This document shows positions 30,412 through 37,707 of a DNA stretch of 64,000 nucleotides, piece after piece. The notes below the pieces were generated by a model. It was given only the letters and a program-made list of their open reading frames with translations, was not told the origin of the DNA and ran no database searches. Positions within the stretch are counted from its first letter, which is position 1. Every line of letters starts with the position of its first letter. This DNA is from Halomicroarcula saliterrae (GTDB taxonomy: Archaea > Halobacteriota > Halobacteria > Halobacteriales > Haloarculaceae): the NCBI RefSeq assembly GCF_031624395.1, contig NZ_JAMQON010000001.1:930001-994000 (forward strand), read 5' to 3'. The position numbers were made by a program, and so were the translations under genes.

Positions 30412-30508
30412 ACTGCTCAGCGATGAAACGCCTCGCGGCTAATCGTCCGCCTCTGCGAAGCGCACGCTCACTGCTCAGCGATGAAACGCCTCGCGGCTAA
30501 TCGTCCGC
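30412..30508. repeat. Two 39-bp direct repeats over the leuD stop
   Basis: A 39-base block at 30412-30450 recurs without mismatch at 30470-30508, a period of 58 bp. The second copy holds the last codons and the TAG of leuD (minus strand); the first is an isolated duplicate of that gene end. The 19 bases between them are unlike the flanks. The rest of the 238-bp gap to the next gene shows no frame I trust. Confidence 0.85.
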
Positions 30509-31141
30509 TTCGACGTCCGACCGCGTCTGGTCCAGATACGGGAGGTTCGCGGCCGTCTCCTCGATGGCGTTGCGGTTCGCCTTCATCAGCGCCGTCGTGT
30601 CCCAGATGCCCTCGACGAGGGCCTTCCGCTGGGCGTCGTCGACGGAGACGCTGATCTCCTGCCCGCCGTAGCGGACCGTTTCGGCGGCCACGTCGACCTC
30701 GATGTCGCCGTCGGGGTTGTCGTCGACCCACTGCTGGAGCGCGTTGATGGTCTCGTGGTCGGCGGTCAGCGTCGGGATGCCGAGCGCGAGGCAGTTCCCC
30801 GCGAAAATCTCGGCGAAGCCCTCGCCGATGATGGCGTCGATGCCCCAGCGCATCAGCGCCTGCGGGGCGTGCTCGCGGGAGGAGCCACAGCCGAAGTTGT
30901 TGTTGACGACCATGACGTTGGCGTCCTGGAAGCGCGCCTCGTTGAGCGGGTGCTCCTTCTCGTTGTCGTCGTCGTCGAACCGCAGGTCGAAGAAGGCGAA
31001 CTCGCCCAGCCCATCGAAGGTGACGACCTTCATGAACCGCGCCGGGATAATCTGGTCCGTGTCGATGTCGTTACCGCGGATGGGCACACCGGTGCCCTCG
31101 ACGTAGTCGACCTCCGGGATGTCCTCGGTCGCGTCGGTCAC
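30497..31141 (-). CDS. leuD: 3-isopropylmalate dehydratase small subunit
   Basis: Forms the isomerase with LeuC. The 214 residues contain [16 protein letters not shown] at the N-terminus, and [21 protein letters not shown], which binds the substrate. Its start overlaps the leuC stop by 4 bp (30 nt after the leuC Ala end). The last codons lie inside a duplicated 39-bp block. Confidence 0.93.
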
Positions 31142-32559
31142 GCCAAGGTCACCTCCTTGATGTCGCGCACGTCAGACACCGTCCCGTTGATGGCCGCGGC
31201 GGCGACCATTCGGGGGTTCATCAGCACGGTGCGGCCGTCCTTGCTGCCCTGGCGGCCGACGAAGTTCCGGTTCGAGGAGCTGGCACAGGCCTCGTCGCCC
31301 TCCAGCTGGTCCTCGTTCATGCCCAGACACATCGAACAGCCGGCGTTGCGCCACTCGAAGCCGGCCTCCTCGAAGATGTCTTTGAGCCCTTCTTCCTCGG
31401 CGGCGTGCTGGACGCGCTGGCTGCCGGGGACGACGAAGGCACGGACGCTGTCGTCGACCTGCCGCCCCTTCACGATGCGGGCGGCCCGTCGGAGGTCCGG
31501 CAGTCGGGCGTTGGTACAGGAACCCAGGAAAGCGACGTCGATGTCGTACCCCTCCATGGACTGGCCGGGCTCGACGCGCATGTGCTTCTGGGCGCGCCGG
31601 GCCGTGTCCACCTTGTCGTCGGCCAGCGATTCGGGCTCCGGAATCGGGTCGTCGATGCCGATACCCTGACCCGGAGTGGTCCCCCAGGTGACGACCGGGT
31701 CCAGCTCGCCGGCGTCGATTTCGACGACGTCGTCGTACTCGGCGTCCGCGTCGCTGCGGATGGACTCCCAGTACGGCTTCAGTTCCTCGAACTTCCCGGG
31801 GTGCTCCTGGAAGTAGTCCGTCTGTTCCAGCCACTCGTAGGTGGTCTCGTCGGGGTTGACGTAGCCCGCGCGAGCGCCGCCCTCGATGGACATGTTACAG
31901 ATGGACATCCGCCCCTCCATGTCGAGGTTCTCGATGGTCTCGCCGGCGTACTCGTAGACGTAGCCGACACCGCCCTCGGTGCCCAGACGGCGGATGATTT
32001 CGAGGATGATGTCCTTGGCCTCGACGCCCTCGTCTAGCTCGCCGGTGACCTCGATCTTGCGGACCTTCTGTTTCTCCATCGCGATGGTCTGGGTCGCCAG
32101 CACGTCGCGAATCTGGCTGGTCCCGATACCGAACGCCAGGGCGCCGAAGGCGCCGTGCGTGGAAGTGTGGCTGTCGCCACAGACGATGGTCTTGCCGGGC
32201 TGGGTGATGCCCTGCTCCGGACCGATGACGTGGACGATACCCTGGTCCCCCGTCGTCGGGTCGGAGAACTGGATGCCCGCGTCGCGGACGTTCTCCTCAA
32301 GTTCGGCCATCATCCGCTCGGCCGCGTCGTCGGAGTAGGGCCGGTCCTGGTTCGCCGTCGGGACGATGTGGTCGACCGTGGCGTGGGTCAGGTCGGGGCG
32401 GGCGACTTCGAGGCCGCGCTCCTGAAGCATCCCGAACGCCTGCGGGCTGGTGACCTCGTGGATGAGGTGGAGCCCGACGAACAGCTGGTCCTGCCCGTTC
32501 GGCAGCGTCGTTACCTTGTGCTGGTCCCATACCTTGTCGTACAGCGTGTTCTTGCTCAT
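31138..32559 (-). CDS. leuC: 3-isopropylmalate dehydratase large subunit
   Basis: The aconitase-like subunit with a 4Fe-4S cluster, 473 residues. The cluster cysteines are in [13 protein letters not shown] and [32 protein letters not shown] is the substrate motif. It overlaps the small gene upstream by 4 bp and leuD downstream by 4 bp, so translation of the group is probably coupled. Confidence 0.95.
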
Positions 32560-32775: not shown

Positions 32776-33798
32776 TCAGTCGTCCGCTGGTGCCTCGGCT
32801 TCTTCCTGTTCGCCCCACGAGAACAGCGAGCGCAGCTCGTTACCGACCTGCTCTATCTCGTGGTCCTGTTCGGCCTGTCGGTACTGCCGGTAGCTCGGCC
32901 GGCCGGCCTGGTTCTCGAGAATCCACTCGCGAGTGAACTCGCCGTTCTGAATCTCCTCGAGGATCTTCTCCATCCCCTCGCGGTTGATGACTTCCTCACC
33001 GCGGGTGAGACCGCCGTACTCGGCGGTGTCCGAGACCGAGTTCCACATCTCCATGTGGCCGCCCTCGTACATCAGGTCGACGATGAGCTTGAGCTCGTTC
33101 AGACACTCGAAGTAGGCCATCTCCGGGGAGTAACCCGCGTCGACGAGCGTCTCGAAGCCGACCTTCACCATCTCGGTGACGCCGCCACAGAGGACGGCCT
33201 GCTCGCCGAAGAGGTCCGTCTCGACCTCTTCCTTGAAGGTCGTCTCGATGACGCCCGCTCGCGTGCAGCCGATGGCCTTCGCGTAGGAGAGCGCGCCCGC
33301 CTTGGCGTCGCCGCTCGCGTCCTGGTAGACGGCGATCAGTCCGGGAGTCCCCTCGCCGCGGTCGTAGGTCCGGCGGACGAGGTGGCCGGGCGACTTCGGC
33401 GCGACCATGGTCACGTCGACGCCCTCTTGGGGCTCTATCTGGCCGTAGTGGATGTTCAGCCCGTGGGCGAACTGCAGCGTGTCACCGGGCTCCAGTCCGT
33501 CCTGAATGGCCTCGTAGACGGCCGGCTGGACCGTGTCGGGGACCAGCATGACAACGCGGTCGGCCTCGGCGGCCGCCACGTCGGGCGTCTCGACCGTCAG
33601 GCCCGAGGCCTCGGCGTCGTCGCGGGAGGACGACCCCTCGCGGAGGCCGACGATGACGTCGACACCGGAGTCGTGGAGATTCAGGGCGTGAGCGTGGCCC
33701 TGCGAGCCGTATCCGAGTACGGCAACTGTCTCGTCGGTCACGTGCGATACGTCGGCGTCGTCGTCGTAGTAGACTGTTGTGTTGAGTTCGTCAGTCAT
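32776..33798 (-). CDS. ilvC: Ketol-acid reductoisomerase
   Basis: Second step of valine and isoleucine synthesis. The 340 residues have the NAD(P) loop [21 protein letters not shown], then [29 protein letters not shown], and the metal-binding C-terminal part ([21 protein letters not shown]). It is the class I (short) form. The start overlaps the ilvN stop by 8 bp. Confidence 0.95.
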
Positions 33799-34392: not shown

Positions 34393-36156
34393 TTAGAGCA
34401 TCTCCAGGTGGTCTTCTTCCAGTGCGAACTGGCCGTTGTCGCCGCCGCTTGGCACCATCGGGAAGACGTTCTCCCCGGGGTCGATGTGCGCGTCGATGAC
34501 CGACGGGCCATCGTACTCGCGAGCGGCCTGAATCGTCTCCTCGACGTCTTCCTGTGCCTCCAGTCGGAACCCGCGGGCCCCGAAGGCCTCGGCGAGCTTG
34601 TCGAACTGGGGTATCCACGGGTACTCCGAGGCCATCCGTCGGCCCTCGTAGAAGCCGTCCTGCCACTGGCGGACCATCCCGACCGCCTCGTTGTTCAGGA
34701 CGACGTAGGTGATATCGAGCTGTTCGCGGACCGCGACGGAGAGGCCCTGAACCGTCATCAGGAACGAGCCGTCGCCGTCGAAGCAGACGACCTCCTGGTC
34801 CGGGGCGGCGAGCTTTGCGCCGATGGCGGCGGGGACGCCGTAGCCCATCGTCCCCAGCCCGTGGGAAGAGACCCAGGTCCGGGGCTCGGTGTACTCCCAG
34901 AACTGGGAGGCCCACATCTGGTGTTGCCCGACGCCGGTACAGACGATGGTGTCGTCCGGCGTCAGGTCGCTGAACGTCTCGACGACGTACTGGGGCTTCA
35001 GCGGCTCGTCGTCGGGCGTTTCGTAGGTCATCGGGTACTCCGACTTCCAGGTCTGGCACTGCTCGCGCCACTCGTCCACGTCGGGGACCCGCGGCATCGC
35101 GTCGAACAGCTGGCGCAGGACCTTCCGCGCGTCGCCGATGAGCGGATACTCCGCGAAGATGTTCTTCGATATCTCGGCGGGGTCGATGTCGACGTGGATG
35201 ACCTCGGCGTCCGGGGCAAAGGAGTCGACGCCGCCGGTCAGGCGGTCGTCGAAGCGGGTCCCGATTGCCAGCAGGCAATCCGTGTTCGAGATGGCCATGT
35301 TGGCGTAACCGGTGCCGTGCATCCCGGCCCATTCCAGCGAGAGCTCGTGGTCCTCCGGGAAGGAGCCGATACCGGGCATCGTCGTGATGACCGGGATCTC
35401 GTACTCGATGGCGAACTCCCGCAGCGCCGACGAGGCGTCGGCCTTGATGACGCCGCCACCGGAGAGGATGACCGGCCGGTCCGCGGCCGCGAGCGCCTCG
35501 GCGGCTTCCTGAACGGCCGCGTCGTCGGCCTCTTCCTGCACGTCGTAGGTGTCCGGCGTCTTCGGTGCGGCGGGCTCGATGTCGGTCTCGCCCTGCGTGA
35601 CGTCTTTCGGGAGGTCGACGAGCGTCGGCCCCTGTCGGCCGGCGTCGGCGAGGGCGAAGGCCTCGCTGACGTTGTCACCGACGGTGTCCGAGTCCGCGGC
35701 GAAGTAGCTCTCCTTGGTGACCGGCTGGGTGATGCCGACGGTGTCGGTCTCCTGGAAGGCGTCGTTGCCGACGAACTCCGTCGGGACCTGACCCGTCAGC
35801 GCTATCATCGGGTCCGAGTCCATGTTGGCGTCGGCGATGCCGGTCACGAGGTTCGTCGCGCCCGGCCCCGAGGTAGCGAAACAGACGCCGGGGTCGCCGG
35901 TGACGATGCCGTAGGCGTCGGCGGCGTGTGAGGCCCCCTGCTCGTGGGCCATCGTCACGTGGTTGATATCGGAGTCGTACAGCGCGTCGTAGACGGGCAT
36001 GATAGCGCCGCCCTGAACGCCGAAAATGTACTCCGCGCCGGCGTTTTCGAGCGCGCGGACGACGGACTGGGCGCCGGTGGTGACCGGCGCCTGGTCGCTC
36101 GTCTCCGTCTGTTCGTCGCCCTCCTCGTCGGCGGGGACTGATGCGCGTTCGCTCAT
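34393..36156 (-). CDS. ilvB: Acetolactate synthase large (catalytic) subunit
   Basis: Thiamine-diphosphate enzyme for the first common step. The 587 residues hold the catalytic glutamate region (MAHEQGASHAADAYG) and the ThDP motif GDGSFLMTVQGLSVAVREQ with VVLNN. An unusual acidic N-terminal stretch of about 25 residues precedes the core. A strong Shine-Dalgarno-like GGAGGGGAG lies just before the ATG, which fits a non-leaderless gene with a long leader. It is the first gene of the ilvB-ilvN-ilvC-small gene-leuC-leuD operon. Confidence 0.95.
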   Translation of the reverse strand: MSERASVPADEEGDEQTETSDQAPVTTGAQSVVRALENAGAEYIFGVQGGAIMPVYDALYDSDINHVTMAHEQGASHAADAYGIVTGDPGVCFATSGPGATNLVTGIADANMDSDPMIALTGQVPTEFVGNDAFQETDTVGITQPVTKESYFAADSDTVGDNVSEAFALADAGRQGPTLVDLPKDVTQGETDIEPAAPKTPDTYDVQEEADDAAVQEAAEALAAADRPVILSGGGVIKADASSALREFAIEYEIPVITTMPGIGSFPEDHELSLEWAGMHGTGYANMAISNTDCLLAIGTRFDDRLTGGVDSFAPDAEVIHVDIDPAEISKNIFAEYPLIGDARKVLRQLFDAMPRVPDVDEWREQCQTWKSEYPMTYETPDDEPLKPQYVVETFSDLTPDDTIVCTGVGQHQMWASQFWEYTEPRTWVSSHGLGTMGYGVPAAIGAKLAAPDQEVVCFDGDGSFLMTVQGLSVAVREQLDITYVVLNNEAVGMVRQWQDGFYEGRRMASEYPWIPQFDKLAEAFGARGFRLEAQEDVEETIQAAREYDGPSVIDAHIDPGENVFPMVPSGGDNGQFALEEDHLEML

Positions 36157-36212
36157 CTCTCCCCTCCGCTGGTGGTCGGTCGATACGGTCGTCGTGTGTG
36201 TGGTGTGTGCAT
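36153..36212 (-). CDS. Second short leader frame, overlapping the ilvB start
   Basis: A 19-codon frame (MHTPHTRRPYRP...) whose TGA overlaps the ilvB ATG as ATGA. The arrangement would couple its translation to ilvB. It contains the Shine-Dalgarno-like GGAGGGGAG within its last codons. It holds no branched-chain residues, and I cannot tell if it is translated. Confidence 0.3.
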   Translation of the reverse strand: MHTPHTRRPYRPTTSGGER

Positions 36213-36270
36213 GACTGGAGTTGGTCGTGAATGGTCGGTGAACGGTACGGGTCGGGACGAAGGTGGATAG

Positions 36271-36345
36271 TGTGGGGCTAGACGGCCCCTACAATACCCA
36301 GGTCGCGAAGAAGGAGCGCGTCGCTGGCGGCCGGTCGAGCCCCAC
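36271..36345 (-). promoter_or_regulatory. Candidate attenuator: alternative RNA pairings in the ilvB leader
   Basis: On the minus-strand transcript three short elements compete. Element 1 (36345-36338, GTGGGGCT) lies over codons 7-9 of the leader frame. Element 2 (36293-36285, TGTAGGGGC) lies over its codons 24-27. Element 3 (36279-36271, AGCCCCACA) starts within the stop codon. Element 3 can pair with element 1 over 8 perfect bases, or with element 2 over 8 pairs with one bulged A. A ribosome stalled at the Leu codons would leave 2 and 3 free; one at the stop would cover them. No T-run follows, so the output could be termination or ilvB start access. Confidence 0.4.
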
Positions 36346-36364
36346 TGCCAGTGCGCGCTGTCAT
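36278..36364 (-). CDS. Candidate branched-chain leader peptide of the ilv-leu operon
   Basis: A 28-residue frame that begins 30 bp after a TATA-like box and would be nearly leaderless. The first half is Ala/Gly/Arg-rich. The end is ALLLRDLGIVGAV: seven of the last twelve residues are Leu, Ile or Val, the end products of the operon. Their codons are CTC CTT CTT, CTG, ATT GTA and GTC; CTT, ATT and GTA look uncommon in this G/C-biased window. Bacterial ilv and leu operons use such leader peptides for attenuation. Translation is not shown, so this stays an inference. Confidence 0.6.
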   Translation of the reverse strand: MTARTGSGARPAASDALLLRDLGIVGAV

Positions 36365-36366
36365 CA

Positions 36367-36382
36367 CGTGGATTCTTCCACG
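36367..36382 (-). promoter_or_regulatory. Perfect 6-bp inverted repeat at the ilvB transcription start region
   Basis: CGTGGA and TCCACG flank a 4-base loop between the TATA-like box and the leader ATG. It could be an operator at the transcription start, or a 5'-terminal RNA hairpin if initiation lies a little upstream. Confidence 0.4.
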
Positions 36383-36390
36383 TTGCTGGA

Positions 36391-36398
36391 TAATAAAC
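36391..36398 (-). promoter_or_regulatory. TATA-like box of the ilvB operon
   Basis: GTTTATTA on the minus strand is the only A/T-rich box in the 339-bp ilvB-leuA gap. It is centred 30 bp before the leader-peptide ATG at 36364, and gives an mRNA leader of about 210 bases before ilvB. The part of the gap from 36399 to 36495 shows nothing further. Confidence 0.5.
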
Positions 36399-36495: not shown

Positions 36496-37707
36496 CTACG
36501 CCCGGACCTCCTCGCTCTCCTCGTCGACGCCGACCTCCTGAGCGAACCGCTCCAGTTCGCTCATCGTGACCTGCTGTTTCTCCGCGCCGAACTCCTTGAC
36601 GCGGCGGGTCACTTCGCGGACTTCGGCGTCCGTCGGGGCGTACCCCGAATCGACCAGACGCTCCCGCACCGAGTGTGCGCCGGTGTGTTTGCCCAGCACG
36701 AGCTCGCGCTCGGCGCCGACCATCTCGGGGGTCATGACGCCGGGCTCGAACGTGTCGGAGTTCTCGATGACGCCCGCGGCGTGGATGCCGCTCTCGTGGG
36801 AGAAGGCGTTGCGCCCGACGATGGGCTTGTTCGCCGGGACCGGGATGTCGGATTTCTCCTCGACCAGTCGCGACAGCTCCGTGATACGGGTCGTGTCGAT
36901 ACCCGTGTTCACGTCGTACAGCGCCTCCAGCGCCATCACGACCTCTTCGTAGGCCGCGTTGCCCGCCCGCTCGCCGATGCCGTTGACCGACACCTGGGCC
37001 TGGCTCGCGCCGGCCTCGAACCCGGAGACGGCGTTCGCCGAAGCGAACCCGAAGTCGTCGTGGGTGTGGACGTCGATTCTCGCGTCCGTGTGCGAGTCGA
37101 CGATTTCGATGAGGTCGTAGAACCGACGCGGCGTCGCGACCCCGCAGGTGTCGGGGATGTTGATCCAATCGGCGCCCGCGTCCGATGTCGCCTCGATGAC
37201 TTCGATGAGGAAGTCCTCCGACGTTCGGGTGGCGTCCATCGGCGAGAACATGCACTCGGCGCCCGCCTCCGTGATGCGCTCTACCGACTCGACGGCCGAG
37301 TCGAGCGCCTCTTGGCGGGTCGCGTGCATGGAGTCTTGTAACTGTACGTCGGACGTCGAGACGAAGGTGTGGACCATGTCCACACCCGAATCCAGGGCTG
37401 CCTCGATATCCTTCTCGACCACACGCGCCAGTCCGCACGTCGTCACGTGGGTGGACTCGGCGATGTCGCGGACCGCCTCGAACTCCGCGTCGGAGTTGAC
37501 GGGGAACCCGGCCTCGATGACGTGGGTCCCCATCTCGTCGAGTACGGCCGCTATCTCGCGTTTGTCCTCGTAGTTGAACGACGTGCGTGGCGACTGCTCA
37601 CCGTCGCGCAGTGTGGTGTCGAAAATACGTGCGTCTGTTATCTCAGACGTGGAATCCAGTGTGCCCTGGAAGAACTCGATCCGCCGGGGATCCCGACGTG
37701 CCCTCAT
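36496..37707 (-). CDS. leuA: 2-isopropylmalate synthase / citramalate synthase, short form
   Basis: Condenses acetyl-CoA with 2-oxoisovalerate (or pyruvate). The 403 residues show FDTTLRDGEQSPRTSF, VHTFVSTSDVQLQDSM and HTHDDFGFASANAVSG with the metal histidines. The C-terminal allosteric LeuA dimer domain of the long form (about 510 aa) is absent. It may thus be insensitive to leucine, or act as a citramalate synthase. It has its own TATA-like box and is separate from the ilvB transcript. Confidence 0.85.
   Translation of the reverse strand: MRARRDPRRIEFFQGTLDSTSEITDARIFDTTLRDGEQSPRTSFNYEDKREIAAVLDEMGTHVIEAGFPVNSDAEFEAVRDIAESTHVTTCGLARVVEKDIEAALDSGVDMVHTFVSTSDVQLQDSMHATRQEALDSAVESVERITEAGAECMFSPMDATRTSEDFLIEVIEATSDAGADWINIPDTCGVATPRRFYDLIEIVDSHTDARIDVHTHDDFGFASANAVSGFEAGASQAQVSVNGIGERAGNAAYEEVVMALEALYDVNTGIDTTRITELSRLVEEKSDIPVPANKPIVGRNAFSHESGIHAAGVIENSDTFEPGVMTPEMVGAERELVLGKHTGAHSVRERLVDSGYAPTDAEVREVTRRVKEFGAEKQQVTMSELERFAQEVGVDEESEEVRA

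Follow-up and report, generated by a model that had tools for sequence, protein, structure and literature searches.

The window analysed here, a stretch of 64,000 nucleotides from Halomicroarcula saliterrae, carries on its minus strand an ilv-leu operon, whose features are listed in Table 1. The gap between the end of leuA at 36496 and the start of ilvB at 36156 (minus strand) contains the whole leader region. A family search for ilvN with the coordinates used gave no match, and this gene was placed by its position and translation only.

Table 1. Window coordinates of the ilvB leader elements and of the operon genes
Feature	Position	Strand	Evidence
Leader TATA box TTTATTA	36391..36398 (bases 36397-36391)	minus	Kept in every Haloarcula-group locus
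Leader ORF (uORF1) MTARTGSGARPAASDALLLRDLGIVGAV then stop, 28 codons, predicted leaderless	36278..36364	minus	In-frame ORF at some 90 distinct loci of haloarchaea, plus further families
Hairpin P1, within leader ORF	36318..36358; arms 36358-36348 and 36327-36318	minus	Covariation
Hairpin P2, UGU-A-GGGGC / GCCCC-ACA	36271..36293; core 36289-36285 with 36278-36274	minus	Stem of 5 bp or more in 91/91
G-free tract 3' of P2, containing CCTTC	36259..36273	minus	G-free run length and T peak
CGYAYCG element 3' of P2	36243..36249	minus	Excess over shuffles
uORF2 MHTPHTRRPYRPTTSGGER then stop	36153..36212	minus	Frame conservation; stop overlaps ilvB start as ATGA
ilvB, acetolactate synthase large subunit	34393..36156	minus	TIGR00118, 707 bits, above cut-off
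ilvC, ketol-acid reductoisomerase	32776..33798	minus	TIGR00465, above cut-off
leuC	31138..32559	minus	TIGR00170, above cut-off
leuD	30497..31141	minus	TIGR00171, above cut-off

A preliminary description of this DNA had placed a TATA-like box in the gap and, behind it, a 28-codon ORF ending in a run of Leu, Ile and Val, and we found both as described: the ORF closes with a TAG codon (36280-36278, minus strand), and 7 of its 12 C-terminal residues are Leu, Ile or Val. Its ATG at 36364 lies about 33 nt past the TATA box and is immediately preceded by an in-frame GTG at 36367. The spacing from TATA box to leader ATG is 30-33 nt in the Haloarcula group and 28-33 nt across all loci, which is the geometry of a leaderless mRNA, and transcription of the leader is predicted to start at, or within a few nt of, this ATG.

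For comparison, ilvB upstream regions were collected from 80 loci of the genome collection and 30 of relatives and duplicates were removed; the 91 distinct leaders considered below are those with the motif (A/G)T(T/C/A)-GTA-GGG. An ATG or GTG start was found automatically in 90 of them, and the 91st reads from a GTG. Without preselection of frames, there were 85 distinct loci in which an ATG existed 26-36 nt after a TATA-like box, and in 80 of these the first such ATG shares the frame of the Val codon in hairpin P2. All 80 stay open as far as the stop codon of the hairpin, although openness alone is weak evidence, since half of the other frames across the same span are also open. The ORF occurs in 15 different lengths, from 16 to 41 codons, with its frame preserved. 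Its stop codon, always in or beside P2, varies among TAG (59), TAA (18) and TGA (14), whereas P2 persists. The C-terminus reads (I)VG(A)x before the stop, Ile-Val-Gly at the hairpin being near-invariant. Further families, including Natrialbaceae-like ones, possess the same leader.

The nine reading frames of the window, treated as genes, served as the codon baseline, in which CTT makes up 1.3% of the Leu codons, ATT 8.4% of the Ile codons, and GTA and GTT 2.5% and 3%, respectively, of the Val codons; the earlier impression, gained by eye, that CTT, ATT and GTA are uncommon here was therefore correct. In the part of the leaders upstream of P2 the corresponding fractions are 37.5% for CTT, 55% for ATT and 24.5% for GTT. 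All 91 ilvB leaders use GTA for the Val residue at P2, but the Halorubrum group pairs GUA with UAC, and such pairing may partly maintain this codon. Leu, Ile and Val account for 46% of the final 12 residues of 90 leaders and for 8% of the preceding part. Thus a short ORF rich in the end products precedes the operon, as it does in attenuators.

Hairpin P1 spans codons 3-16 and shows compensatory changes. Among 30 Haloarcula-group leaders, 25 compensatory cells were counted, the covariation score was matched by none of 500 shuffles, and in slid controls the paired fraction fell from 97% to 55% or less. Hairpin P2, which contains Val codon 25 (GTA 36292-36290) and the TAG stop, is the local element noticed earlier over codons 24-27 and the stop; it is real, with a free energy of -11.5 kcal/mol including flanks. 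P2 is invariant within groups and variable between them: besides GGGGC/GCCCC we found GGGCC/GGCCC (L068, L159), GGGGCC/GGCCCC (L046), GTAGGGG/CCCCTAC in the Halorubrum group, and GGCCCC/GGGGCC before one valS gene (L217). For these variants the MAFFT alignment, in which one sequence was misplaced, was set aside.

The preliminary description had read the leader as a classical two-state attenuator, in which an antiterminator pairing excludes P2. GTGGGGCT in codons 7-9 indeed perfectly matches AGCCCCAC in this genome, and at some valS leaders possible pairings with the region past P2 were seen by eye. However, the pairing proposed is unique to this genome. In every other relative the longest match elsewhere is 2-5 nt, except in one with 7 nt, and across relatives the pair counts are no better than those of shuffles. 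We also paired each leader (90 ilvB, 20 valS) with its right and with wrong partner regions, and observed no species-specific complementarity of the leader with P2 (p = 0.99) or with the downstream region (p = 0.41). P1, the positive control in the same method, gave p < 0.0005, a signal that is non-significant within the Haloarcula group alone. A covarying long-range pairing of the leader start with the region past P2, suggested by inspection of valS leaders, likewise gained no support from this comparison. Hence no conserved pairing exclusive with the terminator, as in a trp-type antiterminator, was found among these leaders, and we consider the two-state arrangement very unlikely. Comparison of the ilvB upstream regions thus upheld the conserved ORF with its Leu/Ile/Val run but not the pairing; from the attenuator reading there remain an end-product-specific ORF and a stop-codon hairpin, which together support the view that the sensor is likely to be a stalling ribosome.

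Sensing is best supported by something that the preliminary description had missed, namely that the leader type is shared with valS and that other leaders precede a bacterial-type valS and trpS. The P2 pattern with its ORF was also found before valS (valyl-tRNA synthetase) in Halorhabdus-like and other genomes; in this genome that leader is on contig C2 at about 160.4 kb, and its hairpin is GTAGTAGGGGTCTCCACGCCCCACTAA. The valS leaders end in VVGAx, VVVGAA, RVGAx or FVGAx, the residue preceding V being V, R, F, L or P, whereas it is I at ilvB. Ile occurs within the last 12 residues in 90/90 ilvB leaders and in 0/21 valS leaders; the contrast in I:V gives P = 7e-13, a value that is too small because the sequences are related. 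In one valS leader, L205, the reading frame continues beyond the hairpin; this leader was trimmed manually, which does not affect the Ile count.

The bacterial-type valS (37% identical) has its own, unrelated tiny ORF of 8-13 codons with tandem GTA GTA (L191-L199), encoding MALMSSVVR, MYRSPVVRV and others (SVVR), each followed by a stop. By eye, no P2-like hairpin was seen in these leaders; several of the tiny ORFs are followed by TTTTC or CTTCTC. A Trp-rich ORF (WRW or WRWW) lies before some trpS genes of both types, in 8 of 20 trpS loci (L317, L318, L319, L320, L321, L322, L323 and L326). The one of this genome (L322, contig C3, about 10 kb) is MVSTPADGWRWHVRRVDSFAVPVRRA. Where the sequence downstream of these trpS leaders was read, it is CTC(A/C)CTC..TTCT-like. 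At ileS, leuS, ilvD, thrS and hisS, no comparable leader was seen by eye in loci with a judgeable start and orientation, and where the start could be judged a TATA box stands directly before the gene.

The amino acid of the leader therefore matches the gene behind it, Ile at ilvB, Val at the bacterial-type valS and Trp at some trpS, as is expected of attenuators. It is difficult to account for two independent Val leaders and for the Ile/Val contrast unless the cognate amino acid is sensed. We consider it highly probable that the leader ORF is translated and acts in cis as an amino-acid sensor, and the tiny ORF before haloarchaeal Val/Leu/Ile genes is very probably the place where a lack of amino acids is sensed through a stalled ribosome. 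The same data bear on two other explanations. P2 could be a DNA palindrome downstream of the promoter to which a repressor (e.g. an Lrp/AsnC-type protein) binds, with the ORF incidental, and GTAGGGGTATAACCCCCTAC-like sites are in fact near-palindromic and stand before two related genes. Nevertheless, the frame is strict, the stop is always in or beside the palindrome, rare cognate codons lie upstream of it, Ile is present at ilvB and absent at valS, and the bacterial-type valS and trpS leaders carry cognate codons without this palindrome; we judged an operator quite unlikely. An arrest peptide, in which the nascent (I)VGA in the exit tunnel would respond to a small molecule itself, an amino acid or another one, rather than to tRNA charging, would account for the almost invariant C-terminal VG(A)x. 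Yet VGA is dictated by the P2 nucleotides GTAGGGGC and the residue before V differs by gene as cognate sensing predicts, so that we hold an arrest peptide to be highly improbable.

Behind P2 the leaders show a G-free run with a median of 17 nt (3.3 expected), and the T content climbs to 42% at 10-15 nt past the hairpin. Scanning the leader with a terminator pattern revealed no strong U-run behind P2, a sigma-70 pattern scan returned nothing useful for an archaeon, and an Rfam scan of the leader region gave only chance-level matches far below the gathering scores, with no T-box and no credible family. The CGYAYCG element, 20-30 nt past P2 at ilvB and valS (e.g. valS leaders L203, L205, L207 and L216), occurs in 55/91 ilvB and 10/22 valS leaders, compared with about 3 and 1 in shuffles. 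An ORF in the frame of uORF2 is present in 66/91 loci, as against 3 and 7 for the two other frames, and uORF2 is probably a translational-coupling ORF. Its product (MHT...) is rich in His, Thr, Arg and Pro.

As to how the sensor acts, the position of the stop codon within P2 and the invariant GTA at the base of this hairpin point to a ribosome that would occupy the 5' arm of P2 while awaiting Val-tRNA or the preceding Ile-tRNA. Intergenic terminators of Hfx. volcanii consist of a T stretch ending at C, with a hairpin upstream in a subset; at one such hairpin, 59% of transcripts were terminated (PMC7237163). Taken together with the stalling position, the G-free tract and the T peak, this pattern leads to a model in which P2 and the tract terminate transcription unless a stalled ribosome covers P2. 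We consider it probable, though by a lesser degree than sensing itself, that the ilvB leader is a ribosome-mediated attenuator of this occlusion type, whose output is mainly transcription attenuation. P2 in 91/91 leaders, the tract and the T peak agree with termination, while the U-run not found by the scan is the weak point. A further point against the model is that a ribosome which has arrived at the stop codon would likewise mask P2; timing or release must then decide.

The main competing explanation keeps the sensor and changes the output: leader ribosome and P2 would control uORF2 and then ilvB through the ATGA overlap, or mRNA stability, without premature termination. It accords with the frequency of uORF2 with its ATGA overlap (66/91 loci), with coupling at short spacing as demonstrated in Hfx. 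volcanii (PMC12548453) and with the lack of a classical U-tract terminator in the scan. It agrees less well with the distance of more than 50 nt between P2 and uORF2 in this genome, with the valS leaders, which share P2 and the G-free tract and many of which have no obvious uORF2 (by eye), and with the tract and T peak, which fit termination. We regard this alternative as rather unlikely.

The occlusion model draws on features conserved by comparison: the reading frame with its cognate codons, both hairpins, the position of the stop within P2, the tract behind it, the ATGA overlap and the matching leaders at valS. From these we infer that the ORF is translated, that ribosomes stall on it, that transcription terminates, and in which direction the system responds. 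Transcription would begin at or beside the leader ATG, and a ribosome would enter the leader ORF on the leaderless end. P1 may slow RNA polymerase and let the ribosome keep pace; transcription-translation coupling has been reported in haloarchaea (PMC8576121). This ribosome would then meet the rare Leu and Ile codons and the invariant GTA, which lie immediately ahead of the 5' arm of P2 or within it, the stop being located in the loop or the 3' arm of the hairpin. A shortage of Val-, Ile- or Leu-tRNA would stall the ribosome there and mask the 5' arm, P2 and the tract could not end transcription, and ilvB would be made. With charged tRNAs the ribosome would instead finish and depart, P2 would fold, and transcription would terminate in the G-free pyrimidine tract, perhaps with the involvement of aCPSF1/FttA. 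On transcripts that continue, uORF2 and the ATGA overlap may help load ribosomes on ilvB.

Leader-peptide attenuation is a textbook bacterial mechanism. We know of no archaeal case, and a literature search that covered only a minority of subscription journals returned bacterial cases only. In the enterobacterial trp, ilv and leu attenuators, end-product codons stall a ribosome and so decide the folding of the RNA ahead; the stall codons are alike, but there the stalled ribosome frees an antiterminator, whereas the haloarchaeal one would instead cover the terminating hairpin. Masking by the ribosome resembles the tna operon of E. coli, where the ribosome, detained as it completes the leader ORF, masks RNA required for termination. 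The tna operon is, however, induced by free tryptophan via an arrest peptide and uses Rho, a factor that archaea are not known to have. T-box riboswitches control aminoacyl-tRNA synthetase and biosynthesis genes in response to tRNA charging, and thus share target genes and signal with the leaders described here, but they bind tRNA directly and have no ORF. The closest known case is the Corynebacterium ilvB-II motif, an attenuator with a uORF before ilvBNC (PMC10272879). It likewise has a short ORF rich in Leu, Ile and Val before ilvB, with a length that is always a multiple of three, and stems P1 and P2, of which P2 is read as a terminator (PMC10272879). It differs in being bacterial and in having named terminator and antiterminator pairings and a U run behind P2 (PMC10272879), while the haloarchaeal ORF is predicted to be leaderless, has its stop inside P2, yielded no conserved antiterminator in our comparisons and has a P2 that recurs at valS.

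If a conserved archaeal version is real, ribosomes would steer expression through transcription-translation coupling in archaea too, and the leader would be a small natural reporter of the response that a ribosome elicits from the RNA polymerase and the termination factor of archaea. A broader proposal, over which our confidence is evenly balanced, is that these leaders form a general haloarchaeal class of leader-peptide attenuators, adapted to leaderless mRNAs and to the way in which archaea terminate transcription. Under starvation for Val, Ile/Leu or Trp, ribosomes would mask an RNA signal where the leader ORF ends and thereby turn on ilvB, trpS and valS, the last in two unrelated kinds. 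The cognate pattern across three amino acids makes this readily testable in laboratory haloarchaea.

A loose form of the leader pattern is present in 286 of 292 haloarchaeal genomes, a figure that includes chance matches. In the lineages f9 and f11, ilvB lies close behind an upstream gene and the leader is absent. Outside Halobacteria the P2 pattern occurred at background rate only, and the single look-alike with a stop there (L297; G329:C9, about 4.2 kb, in another family of the phylum) was rejected as a U-rich structure after another gene. It reads GGGGCTTGCTAGCCCC and then TTTTCTCTTTTTTTT, its P2 sequence sitting in an apparent plain terminator.

Some minor features were observed at the other end of leuA. 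The start of this gene is ambiguous (37760-37690, minus strand), two ATGs lying 11 nt apart in different frames behind ACTATAAG; the first opens a short ORF, and the second is in the leuA frame (MRARRDPRRIEFFQGTL). Upstream of leuA, at 38000-37850, AACGTCGGAAACGTGGGGTG units occur in repeat.
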